This document shows positions 7,559-46,598 of a stretch of 64,000 bases of DNA, piece after piece (position 1 is the first letter of the stretch; each line of letters begins with the position of its first letter). A model generated the notes under the pieces. It was not told where the DNA came from, ran no database searches, and saw nothing but the letters and a program-made list of their open reading frames with translations. This DNA is from Romboutsia sp. CE17 (GTDB lineage: Bacteria; Bacillota; Clostridia; Peptostreptococcales; Peptostreptococcaceae). The translations under genes were made by a program, and so were the position numbers. The DNA is taken from positions 2,852,001-2,916,000 of the forward strand of contig NZ_CP051144.1 of assembly GCF_012317385.1 (NCBI RefSeq). The letters are read 5' to 3'.

Positions 7559-7563
7559 AAAGA

Positions 7564-7612
7564 AAATAATAGCTTATGTCAGGAATAAATACTGATATAA
7601 GCTATTATTTAA
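7564..7612 (+). terminator. Candidate terminator after cwlD
   Basis: A 14-bp perfect inverted repeat (AAATAATAGCTTAT at 7564 and its complement ending 7610) with a 19-base loop follows the cwlD stop. The T-run is interrupted, so termination strength is uncertain. Confidence 0.6.
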
Positions 7613-7659
7613 TTATTTACTAAGAAGTTTAAAAATAATAAAAAAGTTTAAAAAAAGTG

Positions 7660-7688
7660 TTGACGATAATAAATATAAATGTTATTAT
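7660..7688 (+). promoter_or_regulatory. rrn1 16S promoter
   Basis: TTGACG (7660-7665), a 17-base spacer and TATTAT (7683-7688), preceded by A-tracts from about 7630 that resemble an UP element. The region 7559-7882, which has no protein gene, holds the cwlD terminator, this promoter and the 16S leader. Confidence 0.85.
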
Positions 7689-7882
7689 TAATGAGTGCTC
7701 AACAATAGCACAAATTAAGAACTTTGAAAATTAAACAGTAGGTTAATTTATATAACTAAATTCTTTATTTGAGCAACGGGATATTCTCCTAGAGAATAGA
7801 CGTTGGCGAATGATTTTAAGAATTAAACACAAACAACCAAGCCAGATATTCAGATAATGATTAGCTGAGCGATGGACAACTT
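7689..7882 (+). other. rrn1 16S leader with boxA-like element and pre-16S stem
   Basis: Bases 7715-7742 (beginning TTAAGAAC, ending AACAGTAGG) are complementary to 9397-9424 just downstream of the 16S gene, with a single 4-base mismatch block. This forms the long pre-16S stem where RNase III would cut. The same segment contains ACTTTGAAAA, which resembles the Gram-positive boxA antitermination element. Further on lies a hairpin around 7773-7805 (GCAACG / CGTTG). A 70-90 residue minus-strand frame across this leader and the 16S start is not a gene. Confidence 0.75.
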
Positions 7883-9393
<1,511 letters not shown>

Positions 9394-9442
9394 TTGCCTA
9401 CTGTTTAATTTTGAGGGTTCTTAAAAATCCTTAAAAAAAATA

Positions 9443-9471
9443 TTGACAAGAATCGACAAAGTTATTATAAT
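9443..9471 (+). promoter_or_regulatory. Internal promoter in rrn1 16S-23S spacer
   Basis: A perfect consensus SigA promoter, TTGACA (9443-9448), 17 bases, TATAAT (9466-9471), lies between the pre-16S stem and tRNA-Ala. It could drive tRNA-Ala, 23S and 5S independently of 16S. Confidence 0.8.
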
Positions 9472-9494
9472 ATAACCTGTTGAAAAAATAATAT

Positions 9495-9570
9495 GGGGGT
9501 GTAGCTCAGCTGGGAGAGCACTTGCCTTGCACGCAAGGGGTCAGGAGTTCGATCCTCCTCATCTCCACCA
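9495..9570 (+). tRNA. tRNA-Ala(TGC), rrn1 spacer
   Basis: 76 bases including an encoded CCA. Acceptor GGGGGTG pairs with CATCTCC (two G-U pairs). The D-arm is GCTC..GAGC. The anticodon stem CTTGC/GCAAG encloses loop CTTGCAC with anticodon TGC. The T-loop is TTCGATC. Spacer tRNA-Ala is common in Firmicute rRNA operons. Confidence 0.97.
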
Positions 9571-9661
9571 TTAGTACTTTGAAAACTGCATAACATTTAG
9601 TGATATGACATCATTTAATTATAAATAGACAGAGAAGTCTTTAAAATCAACTTTAATAACT

Positions 9662-12562
<2,901 letters not shown>

Positions 12563-12647
12563 CAATTTAAATGATAAATTCTAAATGATATGCAGTTTTC
12601 AGAGTATTAACTCTAAATAACTTAATAATAAGTTAATCGAAAGATTA

Positions 12648-12763
<116 letters not shown>

Positions 12764-12815
12764 TAATCTTTTTTATTATATACATTTAAATAATGTAATA
12801 TGGCTTAAAGCTAGA

Positions 12816-12871
12816 TAATCAAAATAAAAAAGTAGATACTATCGATAGTATCTACTTTTTTATTTTGATTA
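12816..12871. terminator. 56-bp perfect palindrome, bidirectional terminator
   Basis: Bases 12816-12843 and 12844-12871 are exact reverse complements. The outer part is T/A-rich (runs of A and T flanking GTAGATACTATC), so both strands give a hairpin with a T-run. It sits between rrn1 (+ strand) and the convergent aminotransferase (- strand, ending 12879), and most likely terminates both. Confidence 0.88.
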
Positions 12872-12878
12872 AGATTAA

Positions 12879-17333: not shown

Positions 17334-17380
17334 AAAGAAGGATAATATTAGTTTTATAAAATTAATATTATCCTTCTTTT
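17333..17380 (+). terminator. Terminator of nrdDG
   Basis: A perfect 18-bp stem (AAAAGAAGGATAATATTA and its complement) with a 12-base loop, ending in TTTT, overlaps the last base of nrdG. Confidence 0.92.
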
Positions 17381-17572
17381 ATAGTATTTAGTATTAATTA
17401 TATATTATGTGAGATATAATTTAAGATAAATATAATATAGAGTTTTAAATATCTGAAAGGAGTAAAGGAAGATTAAATAAAGAAGCTGAATTTACTACTC
17501 ATTTTATTTGTAAAAATGCTATAATTATATAATAAAATAAAAAGTATATAATGTTAATAAATATATTAATAA

Positions 17573-17635
17573 TGTGTATAAGTAAGGGTTAAAATATATA
17601 TAATATTGATAAATAGCTGTTAATAATGTGGATAA
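17573..17635 (-). other. Two DnaA-box-like sites upstream of rrn2
   Basis: On the minus strand, TTATCCACA (17635-17627, exact consensus) and TTATACACA (17581-17573, fits TTATNCACA) lie in the same orientation 54 bases apart in very AT-rich DNA. The rest of the intergenic stretch 17381-17690 shows no gene or other recognised element. Two sites are too few to call a replication origin. Confidence 0.5.
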
Positions 17636-17690
17636 TATTATTATTAATAAATTCAAATAAAAATAATTATAAAAAATATTAAAAAAAGTG

Positions 17691-17719
17691 TTGACGATAT
17701 TAGTTAAAGTTGGTATAGT
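17691..17719 (+). promoter_or_regulatory. rrn2 16S promoter
   Basis: TTGACG (17691-17696), a 17-base spacer and TATAGT (17714-17719), with A-tracts upstream. It shares the sequence AAAAAAAGTGTTGACGATA with the rrn1 promoter region. Confidence 0.83.
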
Positions 17720-17919
17720 ATTACTTGTCCGAGAGATAAGGACAAAAAATTAAGAACTTTGAAAATTAAACAGTAGGTTAATTTATATAACTTAAATTCT
17801 TTTTTTTGAGCAACGGGATATTCTCATAGAGAATAGACGTTGGCGAATAATTTTAAGAATTAAACACAAACAACCAAGCCAGATATTCAGGTAATGATTA
17901 GCTGAGCGATGGACAACTT
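17720..17919 (+). other. rrn2 16S leader with pre-16S stem
   Basis: It begins with a small hairpin, TTGTCC / GGACAA near 17725-17745, not present in rrn1. It then carries the same boxA-like and pre-16S stem sequence as rrn1 (from TTAAGAAC near 17750), pairing with the segment after the 16S gene. Confidence 0.7.
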
Positions 17920-19430
<1,511 letters not shown>

Positions 19431-19479
19431 TTGCCTACTGTTTAATTTTGAGGGTTCTTAAAAATCCTTAAAAAAAATA

Positions 19480-19508
19480 TTGACAAGAATCGACAAAGTT
19501 ATTATAAT
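19480..19508 (+). promoter_or_regulatory. Internal promoter in rrn2 16S-23S spacer
   Basis: TTGACA (19480-19485), 17 bases, TATAAT (19503-19508), identical to the rrn1 spacer promoter. Confidence 0.8.
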
Positions 19509-19531
19509 ATAACCTGTTGAAAAAATAATAT

Positions 19532-19607
19532 GGGGGTGTAGCTCAGCTGGGAGAGCACTTGCCTTGCACGCAAGGGGTCAGGAGTTCGATCCTCCTCATC
19601 TCCACCA
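19532..19607 (+). tRNA. tRNA-Ala(TGC), rrn2 spacer
   Basis: Identical to the rrn1 spacer tRNA: 76 bases, anticodon TGC, CCA encoded. Confidence 0.97.
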
Positions 19608-19698
19608 TTAGTACTTTGAAAACTGCATAACATTTAGTGATATGACATCATTTAATTATAAATAGACAGAGAAGTCTTTAAAATCAACTTTAATAACT

Positions 19699-22599
<2,901 letters not shown>

Positions 22600-22685
22600 C
22601 AATTTAAATGATAAATTCTAAATGATATGCAGTTTTCAGAGTATTAACTTTAAGATTTTTTTATAGAAAAGATTTAATAAAGGTG

Positions 22686-22717
22686 TTGACATTTTAAAAT
22701 AAAGATGTTAATATAAT
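22686..22717 (+). promoter_or_regulatory. Promoter in rrn2 between 23S and 5S
   Basis: TTGACA at 22686-22691 is followed after 17 bases by TAATAT, or after 20 bases by TATAAT (22712-22717). The segment 22650-22740 replaces the spacer seen in rrn1 and rrn3. The -35 is perfect but the -10 choice is ambiguous. It would transcribe 5S, tRNA-Leu, the CAT tRNA, and onward into rrn3. Confidence 0.65.
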
Positions 22718-22744
22718 ACTTGTCTTAAAAACAAAGCAATTTAA

Positions 22745-22860
<116 letters not shown>

Positions 22861-22866
22861 TTAAGT

Positions 22867-22955
22867 GCCGAAGTGGCGGAACTGGCAGACGCACAGGACT
22901 TAAAATCCTGCGGGACTTACCTCTCGTACCGGTTCGATTCCGGTCTTCGGCACCA
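22867..22955 (+). tRNA. tRNA-Leu(TAA)
   Basis: 89 bases with a long variable arm, as expected for tRNA-Leu. Acceptor GCCGAAG pairs with CTTCGGC. The anticodon stem CAGGA/TCCTG encloses CTTAAAA with anticodon TAA. The T-arm is CCGGTTCGATTCCGG. CCA is encoded. Confidence 0.96.
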
Positions 22956-22964
22956 AATTAAAGT

Positions 22965-23041
22965 GGACCATTAGCTCAGTTGGTTAGAGCGCCCGGCTCA
23001 TAACCGGTAGGTCTGGGGTTCGAGTCCCTGATGGTCCACCA
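22965..23041 (+). tRNA. tRNA with CAT anticodon (tRNA-Ile2 or elongator tRNA-Met)
   Basis: 77 bases. Acceptor GGACCAT pairs with ATGGTCC, discriminator A, CCA encoded. The anticodon stem CCCGG/CCGGT (one G-T pair) encloses CTCATAA with anticodon CAT. It lacks the C1-A72 mismatch of initiator tRNA. The GGACC acceptor and D-arm resemble remembered Firmicute tRNA-Ile2 sequences, in which C34 is converted to lysidine by TilS, so automatic labelling as Met may be wrong. It ends three bases before the pre-16S stem of rrn3. Confidence 0.85.
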
Positions 23042-23212
23042 CTTTAAGAACTTTGAAAATTAAACAGTAGGTTAATTTATATAACTTAAATTCTTTTTTT
23101 GAGCAACGGGATATTCTCATAGAGAATAGACGTTGGCGAATAATTTTAAGAATTAAACACAAACAACCAAGCCAGATATTCAGATAATGATTAGCTGAGC
23201 GATGGACAACTT
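23042..23212 (+). other. rrn3 16S leader lacking its own promoter
   Basis: Identity to the rrn1/rrn2 leaders starts exactly at the pre-16S stem (TTAAGAAC at 23044). The promoter region found upstream in rrn1 and rrn2 is absent and replaced by the tRNA pair. The remaining leader is almost the same as in rrn2. Confidence 0.8.
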
Positions 23213-24723
<1,511 letters not shown>

Positions 24724-24772
24724 TTGCCTACTGTTTAATTTTGAGGGTTCTTAAAAATCCTTAAAAAAAATA

Positions 24773-24801
24773 TTGACAAGAATCGACAAAGTTATTATAA
24801 T
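24773..24801 (+). promoter_or_regulatory. Internal promoter in rrn3 16S-23S spacer
   Basis: TTGACA, 17 bases, TATAAT, the same as in the other two spacers. It gives rrn3 23S and 5S a local promoter although its 16S has none. Confidence 0.8.
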
Positions 24802-24824
24802 ATAACCTGTTGAAAAAATAATAT

Positions 24825-24900
24825 GGGGGTGTAGCTCAGCTGGGAGAGCACTTGCCTTGCACGCAAGGGGTCAGGAGTTCGATCCTCCTCATCTCCACCA
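24825..24900 (+). tRNA. tRNA-Ala(TGC), rrn3 spacer
   Basis: Third identical copy of the 76-base spacer tRNA with anticodon TGC and encoded CCA. Confidence 0.97.
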
Positions 24901-24991
24901 TTAGTACTTTGAAAACTGCATAACATTTAGTGATATGACATCATTTAATTATAAATAGACAGAGAAGTCTTTAAAATCAACTTTAATAACT

Positions 24992-27892
<2,901 letters not shown>

Positions 27893-27977
27893 CAATTTAA
27901 ATGATAAATTCTAAATGATATGCAGTTTTCAGAGTATTAACTCTAAATAACTTAATAATAAGTTAATCGAAAGATTA

Positions 27978-28092
27978 TGTGGTTACTATAGCAAAGAGGA
28001 TACACCTGTTCCCATTTCGAACACAGAAGTTAAGCTCTTTAGCGCTGATGGTACTTGGGGGCAACCTCCTGGGAGAGTAAGACGTAGCCACG
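27978..28092 (+). rRNA. rrf: 5S ribosomal RNA, copy 3 (variant)
   Basis: 115 bases. Compared with copy 1 it has one G fewer in the G-run (TTGGGGGCAACC) and T for C in loop C (CCATTTCGAAC). The flanks AAGATTA / TAATCTT and a seven-T run (28097-28103) make an extended stem that probably terminates the rrn2-rrn3 transcript. Confidence 0.95.
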
Positions 28093-28194
28093 TAATCTTT
28101 TTTTATTATAATTTTATATTTTAAAAATGGTTAACTTTTAAAAACATGTAGATACTATTAAAAAAGCTAAAATAAAATAATAGGAGTGATACAT

Positions 28195-28389
28195 GTGAAA
28201 AGACTCGCAATGATTTTAGTGATAGTGGGAGCTATAAATTGGGGACTAATAGGAGCCTTTGGAGTTGACTTATTAGGTAATGTATTTGGAGGAACATATG
28301 AAGTAGTAAGTAGAATATTATATTTTATTGTGGGATTGTCAGCAATATATTTAATTATGACCGGAGTTTTTGAAAATAAAAATATATAA
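28195..28389 (+). CDS. Small DUF378-like membrane protein
   Basis: 64 residues from GTG 28195 (MKRLAMILVIVGAINWGLIG), chosen because GGAG at 28183 is well placed; a GTG nine bases upstream overlaps that site. Two hydrophobic segments (about 3-24 and 38-58) are separated by a short loop. INWGLIGAFGVDLLGNVFG is the hallmark of the small DUF378 / YuzA family, of unknown function. It stands alone between rrn3 and a terminator-like hairpin. The family call rests on the N-terminal motif. Confidence 0.8.
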   Translation: MKRLAMILVIVGAINWGLIGAFGVDLLGNVFGGTYEVVSRILYFIVGLSAIYLIMTGVFENKNI

Positions 28390-28471
28390 AATTATAAATA
28401 TATAAAATTATAAATATATATTTAAAGTATAAATAGAAGTACATAACTAATAACTTATAATAAAAATAAAA

Positions 28472-28510
28472 AAAGACCGTGACTATATTTAGTCAACGGT
28501 CTTTAACTTT
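28472..28510 (+). terminator. Candidate terminator after the DUF378 gene
   Basis: AAAGACCGT ... ACGGTCTTT with an inner GACT/AGTC pairing (28472-28504) is followed by a short T-rich stretch. The preceding 28382-28420 is a low-complexity AT repeat (two and a half copies of a 16-base unit). Nothing else is seen up to the next gene at 28652. Confidence 0.65.
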
Positions 28511-28651
28511 TTATAAATTTATAATAATATATGAAGGTGATATAAAAGATATTAATAAGATAATTATAGTTATTATAAATAATGTATAATTAAAATCACA
28601 AATAATAAAATATATTTTTAATAAACTAATAAATAGTATTAAGGAGATTAA

Positions 28652-37079: not shown

Positions 37080-37658
37080 ATGGGAAAAATATGGTTTTAT
37101 ATGATTGTAATCGGAATACTTGGAAGCGTGTGCTTTCAAAATTTAGGTGAGTTAAATACAGTTATTTTAAATGAATCTTCTAAGGCAATAGAGTTTGCAA
37201 TAGGTTTAGCAGGTATAATGGCTTTTTGGATGGGAATAATGAATGTTGCAAAGGACTCAGGTCTTATAGAAAAAATAGGAAATAAATTGAGTCCTATAAT
37301 GAAGAAATTATTTCCTTCAGTTCCCAAAGGACATAAAGCCATGTCTTATATAGTTATGAATATGGCTTTAAATATGCTTGGAGCAGGAAATGGAGCAACA
37401 GCCTTTGGTTTAAAAGCGATGGCTGAATTACAAACACTAAATAAAAATAAAGATACTGCAAGCAACGATATGATTATGTTTCTAGTAATAAATATATCTT
37501 CTGTTCAAATAATACCATTTACAATGTTAAAAATAAGAGCAGATGCAGGATCACAATTTCCTAATGAAATAATAGTTACAACACTATTTGCAACTATAGT
37601 TTCAACCTTTGTAGGAATAGTAACCTGTAAGCTTCTTCAAGGGAGGGATAAGAGATAA
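37080..37658 (+). CDS. spmA: Spore maturation protein A
   Basis: 192 residues with several membrane segments and the nucleoside-recognition (Gate) domain signature GAGNGATAFGLKAM. B. subtilis spmA/spmB mutants make spores with poorly dehydrated cores. It overlaps spmB by one base (TAATG), so translation is coupled. A GGGAGGAG ribosome binding site precedes the ATG. A SigE promoter would be expected during sporulation; I could not identify one with confidence. Confidence 0.93.
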   Translation: MGKIWFYMIVIGILGSVCFQNLGELNTVILNESSKAIEFAIGLAGIMAFWMGIMNVAKDSGLIEKIGNKLSPIMKKLFPSVPKGHKAMSYIVMNMALNMLGAGNGATAFGLKAMAELQTLNKNKDTASNDMIMFLVINISSVQIIPFTMLKIRADAGSQFPNEIIVTTLFATIVSTFVGIVTCKLLQGRDKR

Positions 37659-38182
37659 TGTTAGATATATTTTCTAATATGATTATACCAATTGTAATAC
37701 TTTATATAGTTATCTATGGAAAAAGACAGAAGATAGATATATATGAAAGCTTTGTAAAAGGAGCTATTGATGGTCTAAAAACAGCATGGTCAATACTTCC
37801 ATATATAATAGGAATATTTTTAGCAATAGGTATATTTAAATCTGGAAAAGGAATAGATATTTTAGAATGGATGTTTTCTCCGATAGCAAAACTTATGAGT
37901 ATACCTAAAGAATTAATAGGCTTGATAATAATAAAACCTTTATCAGGGAGTGGGGCATTAGGAATGTATAATGAATTAGTACAAAGGGTAGGAATAGATT
38001 CTTTAGTAGAAAAAATGGGATCGACTATGGTAGGAGCTTCAGAGACTATATTTTATACAATGGCTATATATTATGGAAGTTTAAAAATAAAGAATACAAG
38101 ACATACATTAACTTGTTCTATATTAAGCCATATAGCAGGTGTAATAGCATCAGTATTTATATGTTACTTGGTATTTACATAA
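37658..38182 (+). CDS. spmB: Spore maturation protein B
   Basis: 174 residues, integral membrane. IKPLSGSGALGMYNE is the conserved Gate-domain motif of SpmB. It pairs with SpmA in spore core dehydration. No convincing terminator was seen after its stop; the metG promoter begins 75 bases downstream. Confidence 0.93.
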   Translation: MLDIFSNMIIPIVILYIVIYGKRQKIDIYESFVKGAIDGLKTAWSILPYIIGIFLAIGIFKSGKGIDILEWMFSPIAKLMSIPKELIGLIIIKPLSGSGALGMYNELVQRVGIDSLVEKMGSTMVGASETIFYTMAIYYGSLKIKNTRHTLTCSILSHIAGVIASVFICYLVFT

Positions 38183-42121: not shown

Positions 42122-42991
42122 ATGGATAGACTTTCATCTCATAGAGCTACCAAAGAAGTAGTTCAAAAACATAATTTTAAATTTTCAAAGTCATTAGGCC
42201 AAAACTTTTTAATAGATGATAATGTTATAGATAGGATACTAGCAGGAGCTAGATTATCTGAAGGAGATAAGATAATAGAAGTAGGACCAGGGATTGGTAC
42301 ACTTACTCGTGAAATGGGTAAGGTAGCAGATAAAGTTGTAGCTATAGAAATAGATAAAACTTTAATACCAATATTAGAAGAAACATTAGCTGATTTAGAT
42401 AATGTTGAAGTAGTTAATCAAGATATATTAAAAGTTAATGTTGAAGAATTAGTAAAAGAGAAATTAAGTGGAGGACCAGTTAAATTAGTAGCAAATCTTC
42501 CATACTACATAACTACACCAATAGTTATGAAATTTTTAGAAGAAAACATACCAGTAACTGATATAGTGGTTATGGTTCAAAAGGAAGTTGCGGATAGAAT
42601 GAATGCGGGTCCCGGAACAAAAGATTATGGTGCATTATCAGTAGCGGTTCAATATTATTGTGATACAGAAATTGTAGCAAAAGCACCTAGACACATGTTT
42701 GTTCCTCAGCCAAATGTAGACTCTACAGTTATAGGGCTTCATGTAAGAGAAGAGAGAAAGTACCCTGTTGATAATGAGGAAATTTTCTTTAAAACAGTTA
42801 AAGCTTCATTTGGACAAAGAAGAAAAACTCTTCTTAATTCTTTAGGAACATTAGGGTTTTTAACTAAAGATCAAGTAAAAGAAGCCTTATCTAATGCTAA
42901 TATAGATGAAAAAAGAAGAGGAGAAACTCTTACAATAGAAGAATTTGCAACACTTTCAAATGTTATAAATTCAATGGTACCTTCAAAATAG
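42122..42991 (+). CDS. rsmA: 16S rRNA A1518/A1519 N6-dimethyltransferase
   Basis: 289 residues (KsgA). SAM motif EVGPGIGTLTREM, acidic motif AIEIDKTL, catalytic NLPYYIT, and the C-terminal FGQRRKTLLNSL. It dimethylates two adjacent adenines near the 3' end of 16S rRNA late in 30S assembly. The last codons and the stop lie inside a terminator hairpin (42977-42998). Confidence 0.96.
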   Translation: MDRLSSHRATKEVVQKHNFKFSKSLGQNFLIDDNVIDRILAGARLSEGDKIIEVGPGIGTLTREMGKVADKVVAIEIDKTLIPILEETLADLDNVEVVNQDILKVNVEELVKEKLSGGPVKLVANLPYYITTPIVMKFLEENIPVTDIVVMVQKEVADRMNAGPGTKDYGALSVAVQYYCDTEIVAKAPRHMFVPQPNVDSTVIGLHVREERKYPVDNEEIFFKTVKASFGQRRKTLLNSLGTLGFLTKDQVKEALSNANIDEKRRGETLTIEEFATLSNVINSMVPSK

Positions 42992-43008
42992 AAGGTACTT
43001 TTTTTTTA
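42977..43008 (+). terminator. Terminator overlapping the end of rsmA
   Basis: GTACCTTC (42977) and GAAGGTAC (ending 42998) form an 8-bp stem whose loop contains the rsmA stop codon, followed by at least seven Ts. Confidence 0.9.
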
Positions 43009-43057
43009 CCCATATACATATACTATCTAGAGAACTTATGTAAAGGGGGGAAATGAA

Positions 43058-44278
43058 GTGGGCTCTAATAGAAAGTTTAAAAGAGAATATATAATTTTAG
43101 AAGCTAAAGATATGAATTTTAGATATAAAGAGCGCATCTTACCTAAAGCTTTTGCAAAGATAGAAATAAATGATGAAAAATCAGTTATAGCATTGTATGT
43201 AGAAAACCTTAAATATATGAAGGACGGATATAGGGTTGTAGCTATAAGAAGTGACTATGAAACTATAGATTTAGGCAAAATAACTTTAAATGAGCAAGGG
43301 AAAGGAGAGTTTGTACTAGATTTAGAAGACAGAAATGCAGAAATAAAAGGAATAGCTTTATTATATGAAAAGACTGTACCACTTATAGGATTTAAAGGAA
43401 GTAAAATAGAAAATTACGAAGAAATACTATTTATGGCGGATGAAGAAGAATATACAAACATGGAAGATGAAGGTGAATATGAAGAAATAGAGTATATAGA
43501 GGTTGATGAAGAGGATGATGATGAGTACGAAGAGTATGAAGAAATAGAGTATATAGAAATTGATGAAGAAGATGATGATGAATATATGGAGATTGAAGAA
43601 GATAATCAAGAATATGATCTAAATAACTATAGTGATAATAATAAATATGAAGTAAATTATAATAATCAATATAAACAGTATGAAAATATAACTAACAAAG
43701 AATCTCTAGTATATAATAGAACTAATAAAATTCTTAACAAAAATAAAGTTAATAAAGAAAAAATTAAGCAACGAACATATTCAAATGTAAATCATAATCC
43801 ATTTACAGATACAGAGCGAAGTGATGAATACCAAGATATACCATATACTAATAATAAAACACCGGGTACATTATTAATGCCAAGACAAATTAAAAAAGGT
43901 TTAAAATATTTTAAAGAAACAAAACCATTTGTAAATGATTATATAGAAAATACTAGATGGTGGAAAATAGATATTACACCAACAACTTTATGTGGATATA
44001 CAATGCCTTATTTAGGATATGTAAATTCACTTAACTTCACAATGTATAGCGATGCAATAATGCAGTCATATAAATATAGACACTACTTATTTGGAGTACA
44101 ATATGATGAATATAATAAGAGACAAAATTATATTTATGCAGTACCAGGTAAAAAGGATGAGCAACCTGATCAAGGTCATACAGGATTTAGCGTATATCAA
44201 CCTTGTGATTATAGAAATAATAACTTAGGTTATTGGTTGTGCTATATAGATTCAAGAAGTAGACAAATTTTGAAATAG
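43058..44278 (+). CDS. Unrecognised protein with acidic tandem repeat
   Basis: 406 residues from GTG 43058, preceded by AAAGGGGGG. I do not recognise the family. Four parts are visible: a compact N-terminal region (about 1-128) rich in alternating hydrophobic residues; a very acidic segment (about 128-185) with two 19-residue repeats, EYEEIEYIEVDEEDDDEYE (140-158) and a near copy at 159-177; an Asn/Lys-rich basic linker (about 186-275); and an aromatic-rich C-terminal domain (about 280-406, with RWWKIDITPTTLCGYTMPY and HYLFGVQYDEYNKRQNYIYA). There is no signal peptide or membrane helix. It occupies the place where B. subtilis has yabG, after ksgA, so a role in the spore or envelope is possible but unproven. 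Confidence 0.75.
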   Translation: MGSNRKFKREYIILEAKDMNFRYKERILPKAFAKIEINDEKSVIALYVENLKYMKDGYRVVAIRSDYETIDLGKITLNEQGKGEFVLDLEDRNAEIKGIALLYEKTVPLIGFKGSKIENYEEILFMADEEEYTNMEDEGEYEEIEYIEVDEEDDDEYEEYEEIEYIEIDEEDDDEYMEIEEDNQEYDLNNYSDNNKYEVNYNNQYKQYENITNKESLVYNRTNKILNKNKVNKEKIKQRTYSNVNHNPFTDTERSDEYQDIPYTNNKTPGTLLMPRQIKKGLKYFKETKPFVNDYIENTRWWKIDITPTTLCGYTMPYLGYVNSLNFTMYSDAIMQSYKYRHYLFGVQYDEYNKRQNYIYAVPGKKDEQPDQGHTGFSVYQPCDYRNNNLGYWLCYIDSRSRQILK

Positions 44279-44360: not shown

Positions 44361-45476
44361 ATGACAAATAATAAAAGACTTATAGATGAATTTCTTGAAT
44401 TAGTTCAAATAGATAGCCCAACTTCTAAAGAAGGAACTATAGCTAAAGTATTAGTTAAGAAATTAGAAGAAATAGGATTATCTGTAGAGATAGATGATGC
44501 AGGGGAAAAAACTGGCGGTGAAACAGGAAATGTTATAGCTAAAATGAAGGGGACTAAAAAAGGAAAAAAATTATTATTCAGTTCACATATGGATACAGTT
44601 AGCCCAGGTGTAGGAGTAAAACCTATAGTAGATGAAGAAGCTGGAATAATAAAAAGTGATGGAACTACGGTATTAGGTTCAGATGATAAGGCAGGAATAG
44701 CAGCTATTTTAGAAGGATTAAGATATATAAAAGAAAATAATATAGAACACTCAGATATAACAGTAGTATTCTCAATATGGGAAGAAGGCGGATTATTTGG
44801 AGCCAAATCTTTAGATTACTCGAAGTTAGATGTAGACTATGGATTTGTACTAGATAGTGGAGGTTCTCCAGGAGAAATAATAGTAAAAGCGCCAGGTCAA
44901 GATAGAATAGAAGTAAAGATAATGGGAAGACCAGCTCATGCAGGGCTTCAGCCTGAAGAAGGAATAAGTTCAATAATGGTAGCTTCAAGAGCTATAGAAA
45001 ATATGAAGCTATTAAGAATAGATGAAGAAACTACAGCTAATATAGGTATAGTAAAAGGTGGAGTTGCTACAAATATAGTTATGCCAGAAATAGAGGTAAT
45101 AGCGGAAGCTAGAAGCTTGGATGAGGCAAAACTAGATGCACAAACTAATCATATGATAGAAACTTTTGAAAAAGCAGCGAAGGAATTTGGAGCACAAATA
45201 GAAGTAAAAGTTGAAAGAATGTACTCTCCTCTTAACATAGATGACAATGATGATATTGTTGTATTTACTAAAAAAGCATTTGCTAATCTAAATATAGAAG
45301 GAAAAACGGCTTCTACAGGTGGAGGAAGTGACACAAATGTGTTAAATAAAAATGGTATAAAAGCTGTAAATCTTGGTATAGGAATGAAGAAGGCTCATAC
45401 CTTAGAAGAATATATAGCAATAGAGGATATAATAAATTCTGCAAAAACAGTTATAGAAATAATTAAAGAAGCATAA
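44361..45476 (+). CDS. M20-family peptidase (PepT-like)
   Basis: 371 residues. Di-zinc aminopeptidase pattern: H in FSSHMDTVSPG, D in LGSDDKAGIAAIL, catalytic E and ligand in VFSIWEEGGLFGAK, D in FVLDSGGSPGE, and a C-terminal H in GMKKAHTLEEYI. A dimerisation domain occupies the middle (about 180-290). It is close to the clostridial PepT-like tripeptidase group (B. subtilis YqjE type). The substrate is probably a small peptide. It has its own GGAGG ribosome binding site and terminator, so it is probably monocistronic. Confidence 0.88.
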   Translation: MTNNKRLIDEFLELVQIDSPTSKEGTIAKVLVKKLEEIGLSVEIDDAGEKTGGETGNVIAKMKGTKKGKKLLFSSHMDTVSPGVGVKPIVDEEAGIIKSDGTTVLGSDDKAGIAAILEGLRYIKENNIEHSDITVVFSIWEEGGLFGAKSLDYSKLDVDYGFVLDSGGSPGEIIVKAPGQDRIEVKIMGRPAHAGLQPEEGISSIMVASRAIENMKLLRIDEETTANIGIVKGGVATNIVMPEIEVIAEARSLDEAKLDAQTNHMIETFEKAAKEFGAQIEVKVERMYSPLNIDDNDDIVVFTKKAFANLNIEGKTASTGGGSDTNVLNKNGIKAVNLGIGMKKAHTLEEYIAIEDIINSAKTVIEIIKEA

Positions 45477-45797: not shown

Positions 45798-46598
45798 GTG
45801 TCTAAAAATAGTAGGAAAAAAAGAAAGTTAAAGAAGAATGCGATATTACCACTTAGTATATTTGTATTCTTTGTTTTATATTTCTTTTCATTCTGGTGGT
45901 TTAGCAAAGATCAAGAAAAGCTGCAAAATGTAGAAGTTAATCTTCAAGATCAAAAAGAAGATACTAGAACTCTACTAACTCAGCTAAGATATAAACAAAA
46001 GATATATCTTTCAGATGGAACAGTAAGTAATATAAGGGTTGAAGAAGAATACTGGGATGAACTAGACTATATACTTGCAGAATTAAAAGAAGTAAGAGCT
46101 CCGGAGTCATTTACTGAAGTATATAGTGGAAACTCAGATGATGGACTTAAATTTTCAACAGATTTAAATTATTTAAGGATTTATACAGTAAATAAAGAGA
46201 CATACTATAAAATACCAGTAGATTCAAAAGAAGAATTTTCAAATGTTTTAAAGAAGAGTATATATACATCGTTTGGATTTGTAAGTCAGTATAAATCTTG
46301 GGATCGTGTGAGCATAACTTACAAAGATAAAACTAAGAAAATTAACAAGTGGAAGTTTGATGACTTATCATACAAAATGGCATCAAAACGGATTGTAGGA
46401 AAAGTACAGCCAGAAAAAAGTAAAGAAAGAAGTGAGTATAACTTCACCATATCAATAAATATAAAAGGTGAAGATATAGTAGTAGAAACAATGGGAGAAG
46501 ACTATATAAAAATAACTTCTCATAATTTACAATCATATTATGAAGTTCATAATGCTTTATATGAATACATAAAAAATGATATATTCAAAATTAAATAA
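45798..46598 (+). CDS. Membrane-anchored protein of unknown function
   Basis: 266 residues from GTG 45798, preceded by AGGGGGTG. A lysine/arginine-rich N-terminus (MSKNSRKKRKLKKN) precedes one strongly hydrophobic segment (about 16-35, ending in FFSFWWF), so the protein is predicted to be anchored with a small cytoplasmic tail and a large outer domain. The outer part has a short heptad-like stretch (about 38-65) and mixed alpha/beta sequence. No catalytic motif is visible and I do not recognise the family with confidence. It is monocistronic, ending in a hairpin before the convergent murC. Confidence 0.72.
   Translation: MSKNSRKKRKLKKNAILPLSIFVFFVLYFFSFWWFSKDQEKLQNVEVNLQDQKEDTRTLLTQLRYKQKIYLSDGTVSNIRVEEEYWDELDYILAELKEVRAPESFTEVYSGNSDDGLKFSTDLNYLRIYTVNKETYYKIPVDSKEEFSNVLKKSIYTSFGFVSQYKSWDRVSITYKDKTKKINKWKFDDLSYKMASKRIVGKVQPEKSKERSEYNFTISINIKGEDIVVETMGEDYIKITSHNLQSYYEVHNALYEYIKNDIFKIK

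Follow-up and report, generated by a model that had tools for sequence, protein, structure and literature searches.

The gene and its place after ksgA

The locus that follows ksgA in Romboutsia sp. CE17 raises the question of what kind of protein stands there and which process it serves. The first-pass annotation saw in it an unrecognised acidic-repeat protein that has taken the place of yabG. We analysed the gene within a window, the whole stretch of 64,000 nucleotides from contig NZ_CP051144.1. The features around it are as follows.

42122-42991, + strand: ksgA (rsmA), conserved neighbour on the upstream side, C. difficile CD3523 (synteny)
42977-43007, + strand: intrinsic terminator of ksgA, a GTACCTTC/GAAGGTAC stem with a T run (read directly from the sequence)
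43017-43024, + strand: promoter-like -10 box CATATACT of the mother-cell type, sigma-E/K (motif count, published boxes)
43058-44278, + strand: the gene, 406 aa, CD3522 orthologue (open frame, relatives, synteny, papers)
44361-45476, + strand: M20-family peptidase gene, positional orthologue of CD3521 (Pfam, synteny)

The 406-codon frame is open throughout and starts with GTG, as first annotated; the start codon sits 7 nt past AAGGGGGG (43043-43050, read directly from the sequence). The ksgA terminator, a hairpin judged by eye and not by a program score, separates the gene from ksgA. The gene is real beyond doubt, with relatives in 41 of 61 genomes, its own included, and a profile search returns the same 41. 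Its own genome holds no paralogue with either the N- or the C-terminal domain, up to E 1.

A same-strand ksgA lies upstream in 29 of the 30 loci of the relatives set; the one miss (L025) is a cut locus, a longer version of which (L044) shows ksgA. The same arrangement holds for 8 of 11 loci at order level (L031-L041), for 45 of the 49 named ones (L049-L097) and for 16 of 23 from the class (L105-L127), the four sets sharing species. At a further three of the 23 class loci ksgA is present and the family gene was detected by profile only. Among the misses, two loci (L054, L092) are cut short, and six (L040, L097, L105, L107, L112, L126) have no ksgA within the stretch examined. At L037, L038 and L089, which belong to distant members, ksgA still adjoins the family gene but on the opposite strand and convergent with it, so that the arrangement is inverted. 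Downstream, the M20 peptidase gene is found in 20 of the 30 relatives loci (flanks of about 1.5 kb). Among the clostridia examined, genes of the CD3522 family usually sit after ksgA.

This position bears on the claim that the gene replaces yabG, which follows ksgA in Bacillus subtilis. The claim fails: YabG is encoded elsewhere in the same genome, at G000:C1:2667182-2668021, so that the window gene has replaced nothing, and the place after ksgA is where its family usually lies. A Pfam scan finds no Peptidase_U57 domain (YabG, PF05582) in the window protein.

Other parts of the window may be noted in passing. A 266-aa protein with a hydrophobic N-terminal stretch (45798-46598) is encoded near the locus in many close relatives and has no Pfam match over the cut-off. 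Two adjacent membrane-protein genes at 37080-38182 resemble spmA/spmB (spore maturation). The stretches 7559-12878 and 17334-28651 have no listed frames of at least 150 codons, and three tRNA-Ala(TGC) genes, plus Leu and Met tRNAs, lie in or near them; these frame-poor, tRNA-bearing stretches suggest several rRNA operons.

Identity with CD3522 of C. difficile

By sequence and locus order, the window gene is the orthologue of CD3522 of C. difficile 630, a conserved hypothetical protein. In that strain ksgA is CD3523 (PMC9674922). CD3521 codes for an M20B peptidase, belongs to the sigma-E regulon and carries a spore-associated mark (PMC3789822); the gene between the two is therefore CD3522. The C. 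difficile sequences compared come from four strains other than 630 (L073, L076, L077, L080), all with the order ksgA-gene-M20 peptidase, as in the window. Identity between the window protein and that of L073 is 77% in the N domain and 74% in the C domain. Besides locus order and both end domains, the orthologues share an acidic linker, and the C. difficile loci and the window share a -10 box of the CATATA-T type and the GTG start. They differ, however, in the sequence of the linker and in its length (168 residues in the C. difficile strain compared vs 145 in the window protein), and the core motif of the window repeat is absent from the C. difficile sequence.

Published work ties CD3522 to the mother cell. 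By qRT-PCR, loss of sigE lowers its transcript more than 100-fold, a drop that sigG and sigK mutants do not show, and the protein is sigma-E dependent by Western blot (PMC3738446). It is listed with a sigma-E promoter, marked as detected in the spore proteome on the basis of earlier work, and placed among the "probably new spore coat components" (PMC3789822). CD3522 is also reported among the sigma-E genes changed in a faecal-water medium (PMC6232153), and its C. perfringens homologue, CPR_2525, is tabulated among putative sporulation genes (PMC4433262). A full-text search of one literature collection on the locus tag found no functional study of CD3522, and neither DUF7922 nor DUF6128 is named anywhere in the collection searched. 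The YabG paper (PMC10681294) does not mention CD3522, nor does the tag occur in a marker paper (PMC13339974). CsA and CsB of C. sordellii were considered as the same protein and rejected: they are described as Cys-rich outer spore proteins, CsA being a CdeC homologue (PMC5927469), and the window protein has 3 Cys in total.

The window protein has no match of its own in Pfam, NCBIfam, PHROG or PDB sequences at E<=0.001. The best PHROG E is 0.054; a PDB sequence search returned nothing and a second one gave no E below 0.15, its alignments mostly spanning the linker; NCBIfam against 28 family members gave only scattered single weak matches. However, the protein is not unrecognised, because CD3522 has been published as a sigma-E-dependent spore protein and distant members of the family match DUF7922.

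The promoter-like box, CATATACT at 43017-43024, lies beyond the ksgA terminator. The pattern CATATWNT was sought in the 110 nt preceding the domain start and occurs in 37 of 44 homologue upstream regions and in the window, 38 of 45 altogether, the regions being related and not independent; chance expectation from first-order simulation is a mean of 2.2 and a maximum of 6 (200 runs). Save for one extra match in L060, the matches sit 40-62 nt before the domain start. Seven of the 45 regions are without the pattern, and near forms such as CATATAAG or CATATATG are found instead in L055, L081, L082, L083 and L084. Mother-cell -10 boxes are given as CATATTAT and CATATAAT, with a -35 of ATA for sigma-E and AC for sigma-K, in PMC3789822. 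The -35 in the window is weak (TTT at about 16 bp) and alone does not tell sigma-E from sigma-K; a TTT-like -35 resembles one alternative given for sigK P1 (PMC3789822).

Distribution of the family

SpoIVA (TIGR02836) was used as the marker of sporulation. It is present in 41 of the 61 genomes, and its set matches that of the family exactly: 41 genomes have both and 20 neither (Fisher 1.6e-16, uncorrected for ancestry). Among 393 genomes of the class, a first family profile gave 145 matches and a broader one 154; G230, a weak match of the first profile, dropped out with the broader. SpoIVA is found in 288 of the 393, with 286 of the 288 over the family cut-off. By the broader profile, both are present in 149 class genomes, the family alone in 5, SpoIVA alone in 139 and neither in 100 (odds ratio 21, p 4e-20, uncorrected for phylogeny). 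The completeness of the five genomes with the family and without SpoIVA is given as 92-94%. Since 139 of the 288 SpoIVA-positive class genomes have no family match, the family is not part of a universal core. In the phylum set 17 of 199 genomes match, the own genome and one class genome included, and several of these matches are in frames of only 285-321 codons. The family, then, tracks sporulation yet is missing from some spore-formers. The link to sporulation that the first-pass annotation had raised is borne out both by the co-occurrence with SpoIVA and by the sigma-E dependence of CD3522. In two assemblies (L013, L018) in-frame stops interrupt the family gene, through either assembly error or decay.

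Two folded ends and a changing linker

The protein divides into the following parts.

43058-43435, + strand: N-terminal domain, residues 1-126, predicted Cu,Zn-SOD-like beta sandwich, DUF7922-related (AlphaFold2, structure alignment)
43436-43873, + strand: linker, acidic then Asn/Lys-rich, residues 127-272 (composition, orthologue comparison)
43475-43531, + strand: 57-nt repeat copy 1, residues 140-158 (TRF, DNA and protein comparison)
43532-43588, + strand: 57-nt repeat copy 2, residues 159-177 (TRF, DNA and protein comparison)
43874-44275, + strand: C-terminal aromatic/Gly-rich domain, residues 273-406 (AlphaFold2, fold searches)

This is the modular layout first described, an ordered N domain, an acidic and then Asn/Lys-rich linker and an aromatic C domain, and the structure prediction proposed at that stage returns both ends as folded.

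For residues 3-126, AlphaFold2 gives a confident all-beta model (pLDDT 93.4). Foldseek finds nothing significant for it, the best E being 0.096, to a NEAT domain, with SODs from E 0.1. When the Foldseek list was realigned, every one of the matches listed (50 rows) was a Cu,Zn SOD or a SOD copper chaperone, the best being a loop-deleted apo SOD1 (4bd4_A; Z 10.9, rmsd 1.9, 93 residues aligned). This Z is above the 7-8 that the structure-alignment tool typically gives as best for unmatched models. The model thus predicts a Greek-key beta sandwich of the SOD type, without histidines. The metal ligands of Cu,Zn superoxide dismutase are histidines, and residues 1-126 of the window protein have none (other family members have 0 to 5), so that metal binding of the SOD type is not expected. 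An active Cu,Zn SOD was rejected on the same count. The likeness to Cu,Zn SOD, or to the SOD1-like domain of its copper chaperone, is confined to the predicted fold; the window domain differs in its absent histidines, in a sequence identity of 9-16% to the SOD-type matches listed, and in a Foldseek E of at least 0.1.

A second relationship of the N domain runs through more distant members. Pfam DUF7922 (PF25538) passes the cut-off in the N domain of 6 of 10 distant members scanned and matches 9 of 28 family members at E<=0.1. The members above 25 bits (L032, L034, L033, L035, L037, L040) are rows of the same alignment and profile as the window protein, and their N domain aligns with that of the window. 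The window protein, in contrast, has no direct match up to E 1, and so lies below the DUF7922 curated cut-off. On these alignments, its N domain is related to DUF7922 via intermediate family members.

The C domain is modelled fairly well (residues 268-406, pLDDT 87.5). Foldseek against the PDB and viral models returns nothing at E<=0.001, and the fold may still be a known one; structure alignment reaches a best Z of 4.7, with no convincing match to a solved fold. DUF6128 gives E 0.065 against the C end of a single distant member, which is not claimed as an assignment.

In comparison with 13 orthologues, identity is 65-84% in the N domain and 74-85% in the C domain, and only 26-40% in the linker; the end domains are conserved and the linker is free to change. 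The linker carries the two 19-residue repeats already annotated at 43475-43588. The two 57-nt copies are 84% identical in DNA (TRF period 57, score 174) and agree in 17 of 19 residues. The first-pass annotation suggested that copy number may vary between strains, and it does differ between species: the core motif occurs 0, 1 or 2 times in 14 sequences, the window protein and its 13 orthologues. It was not found in the C. difficile sequences nor in the more distant relatives compared, so that the cation or basic-partner binding first proposed for the repeat cannot be the core function; a function carried by the repeat was rejected on this ground. Because the linker changes fast and the motif has 0-2 copies, the repeat is seen as a local elaboration of the spacer. 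The disorder or flexibility of the linker is judged from its composition and divergence.

One family member stands apart in this region. Encoded on the minus strand of G030, L044 has 777 aa and a hugely expanded linker, with a Ser/Gly stretch and a repeat of the HNK/CHDK type, rich in Cys, His and Lys and resembling a metal-binding tract.

Proposed role and alternatives

On balance, we favour the reading that the CD3522 orthologue is a sigma-E mother-cell product built into the spore, most likely into the coat, with a structural or assembly role. The gene, its conservation, its synteny, the promoter-like box and the co-occurrence with SpoIVA are observed here; sigma-E expression and spore location in Romboutsia sp. 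CE17 would carry over by analogy from C. difficile. The gene would be transcribed in the mother cell by sigma-E and the protein kept in the spore. Its two folded ends, a predicted beta sandwich of the SOD type that lacks metal ligands and the aromatic C-terminal domain, would be kept at a distance by a long, flexible spacer of negative charge. So spaced, they could connect two partners, or two layers, on the surface of the forespore, and the process served would be assembly of the coat or exosporium. The general plan is similar to that of the coat scaffolds SpoVID/SipL, which have a beta-rich N domain, an acidic spacer and a small C-terminal domain and are made under sigma-E. The hallmark of SpoVID/SipL, however, is a LysM and/or SPOCS domain. 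A Pfam scan of the window protein finds neither, and membership is therefore not claimed.

An unlikely alternative is a spore-associated enzyme or binding protein, in which the C domain would act on or bind a ligand, for instance a glycan or peptidoglycan, and the N domain would serve as anchor. The conservation of the C domain lends it some weight. W301, G346 and P370 are invariant in 39 diverse members, with H342 and a GYW motif nearly so, and a closer set of 47 adds E368, Q369, T375 and D398 in at least 90%; aromatic residues and one histidine are thus strongly kept over very divergent members, and there is no solved-fold match to argue otherwise. However, H342 is the sole near-invariant polar residue in the 39 rows, the others being Trp, Tyr, Gly and Pro, and a structural role or a binding surface fits this pattern equally well.

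More doubtful still is a metal buffer, an idea of the first-pass annotation, the acidic repeat and linker binding Ca2+ or Mn2+ during spore maturation. A linker net charge of -35 in the window protein, and of -30 to -60 in the 13 orthologues, is what such a buffer might have. Judged by sequence comparison, however, the linker evolves fast; it is acidic in close relatives, and in some distant members the acidity is lost (-4 to +2 in L031, L035, L036 and L040). Neither its sequence nor its charge is conserved there; it is the two folded domains that are conserved. That the gene is unrelated to sporulation and lies near ksgA, itself a housekeeping gene, by chance is hardly credible in view of the exact SpoIVA co-occurrence in 61 genomes, the mother-cell -10 box upstream, and the sigma-E dependence and spore location reported for the orthologue.

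The reading as a coat structural or assembly protein can be taken further. It is conceivable, if rather doubtful, that the CD3522 family is an overlooked hub of coat assembly in a large part of the sporulating clostridia, a scaffold that joins a repurposed metal-free SOD-like domain to a C domain of a new type. In the relatives examined it would be linked to sporulation as tightly as SpoIVA, and it would be required for assembly of the coat or exosporium.

CD3522 served as a sigma-E marker in a 2013 study (PMC3738446), with no functional study found in the literature searched. The exact match with SpoIVA in 61 genomes, the adjacency to ksgA at most loci examined and the two structured domains make the protein a good candidate for a conserved, unstudied spore-assembly protein. 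The gene is a real, ancient and under-studied sporulation gene, not a new system; once its C. difficile orthologue is known, the interest that is left lies in how closely the gene is tied to sporulation and in its unusual build of two domains.
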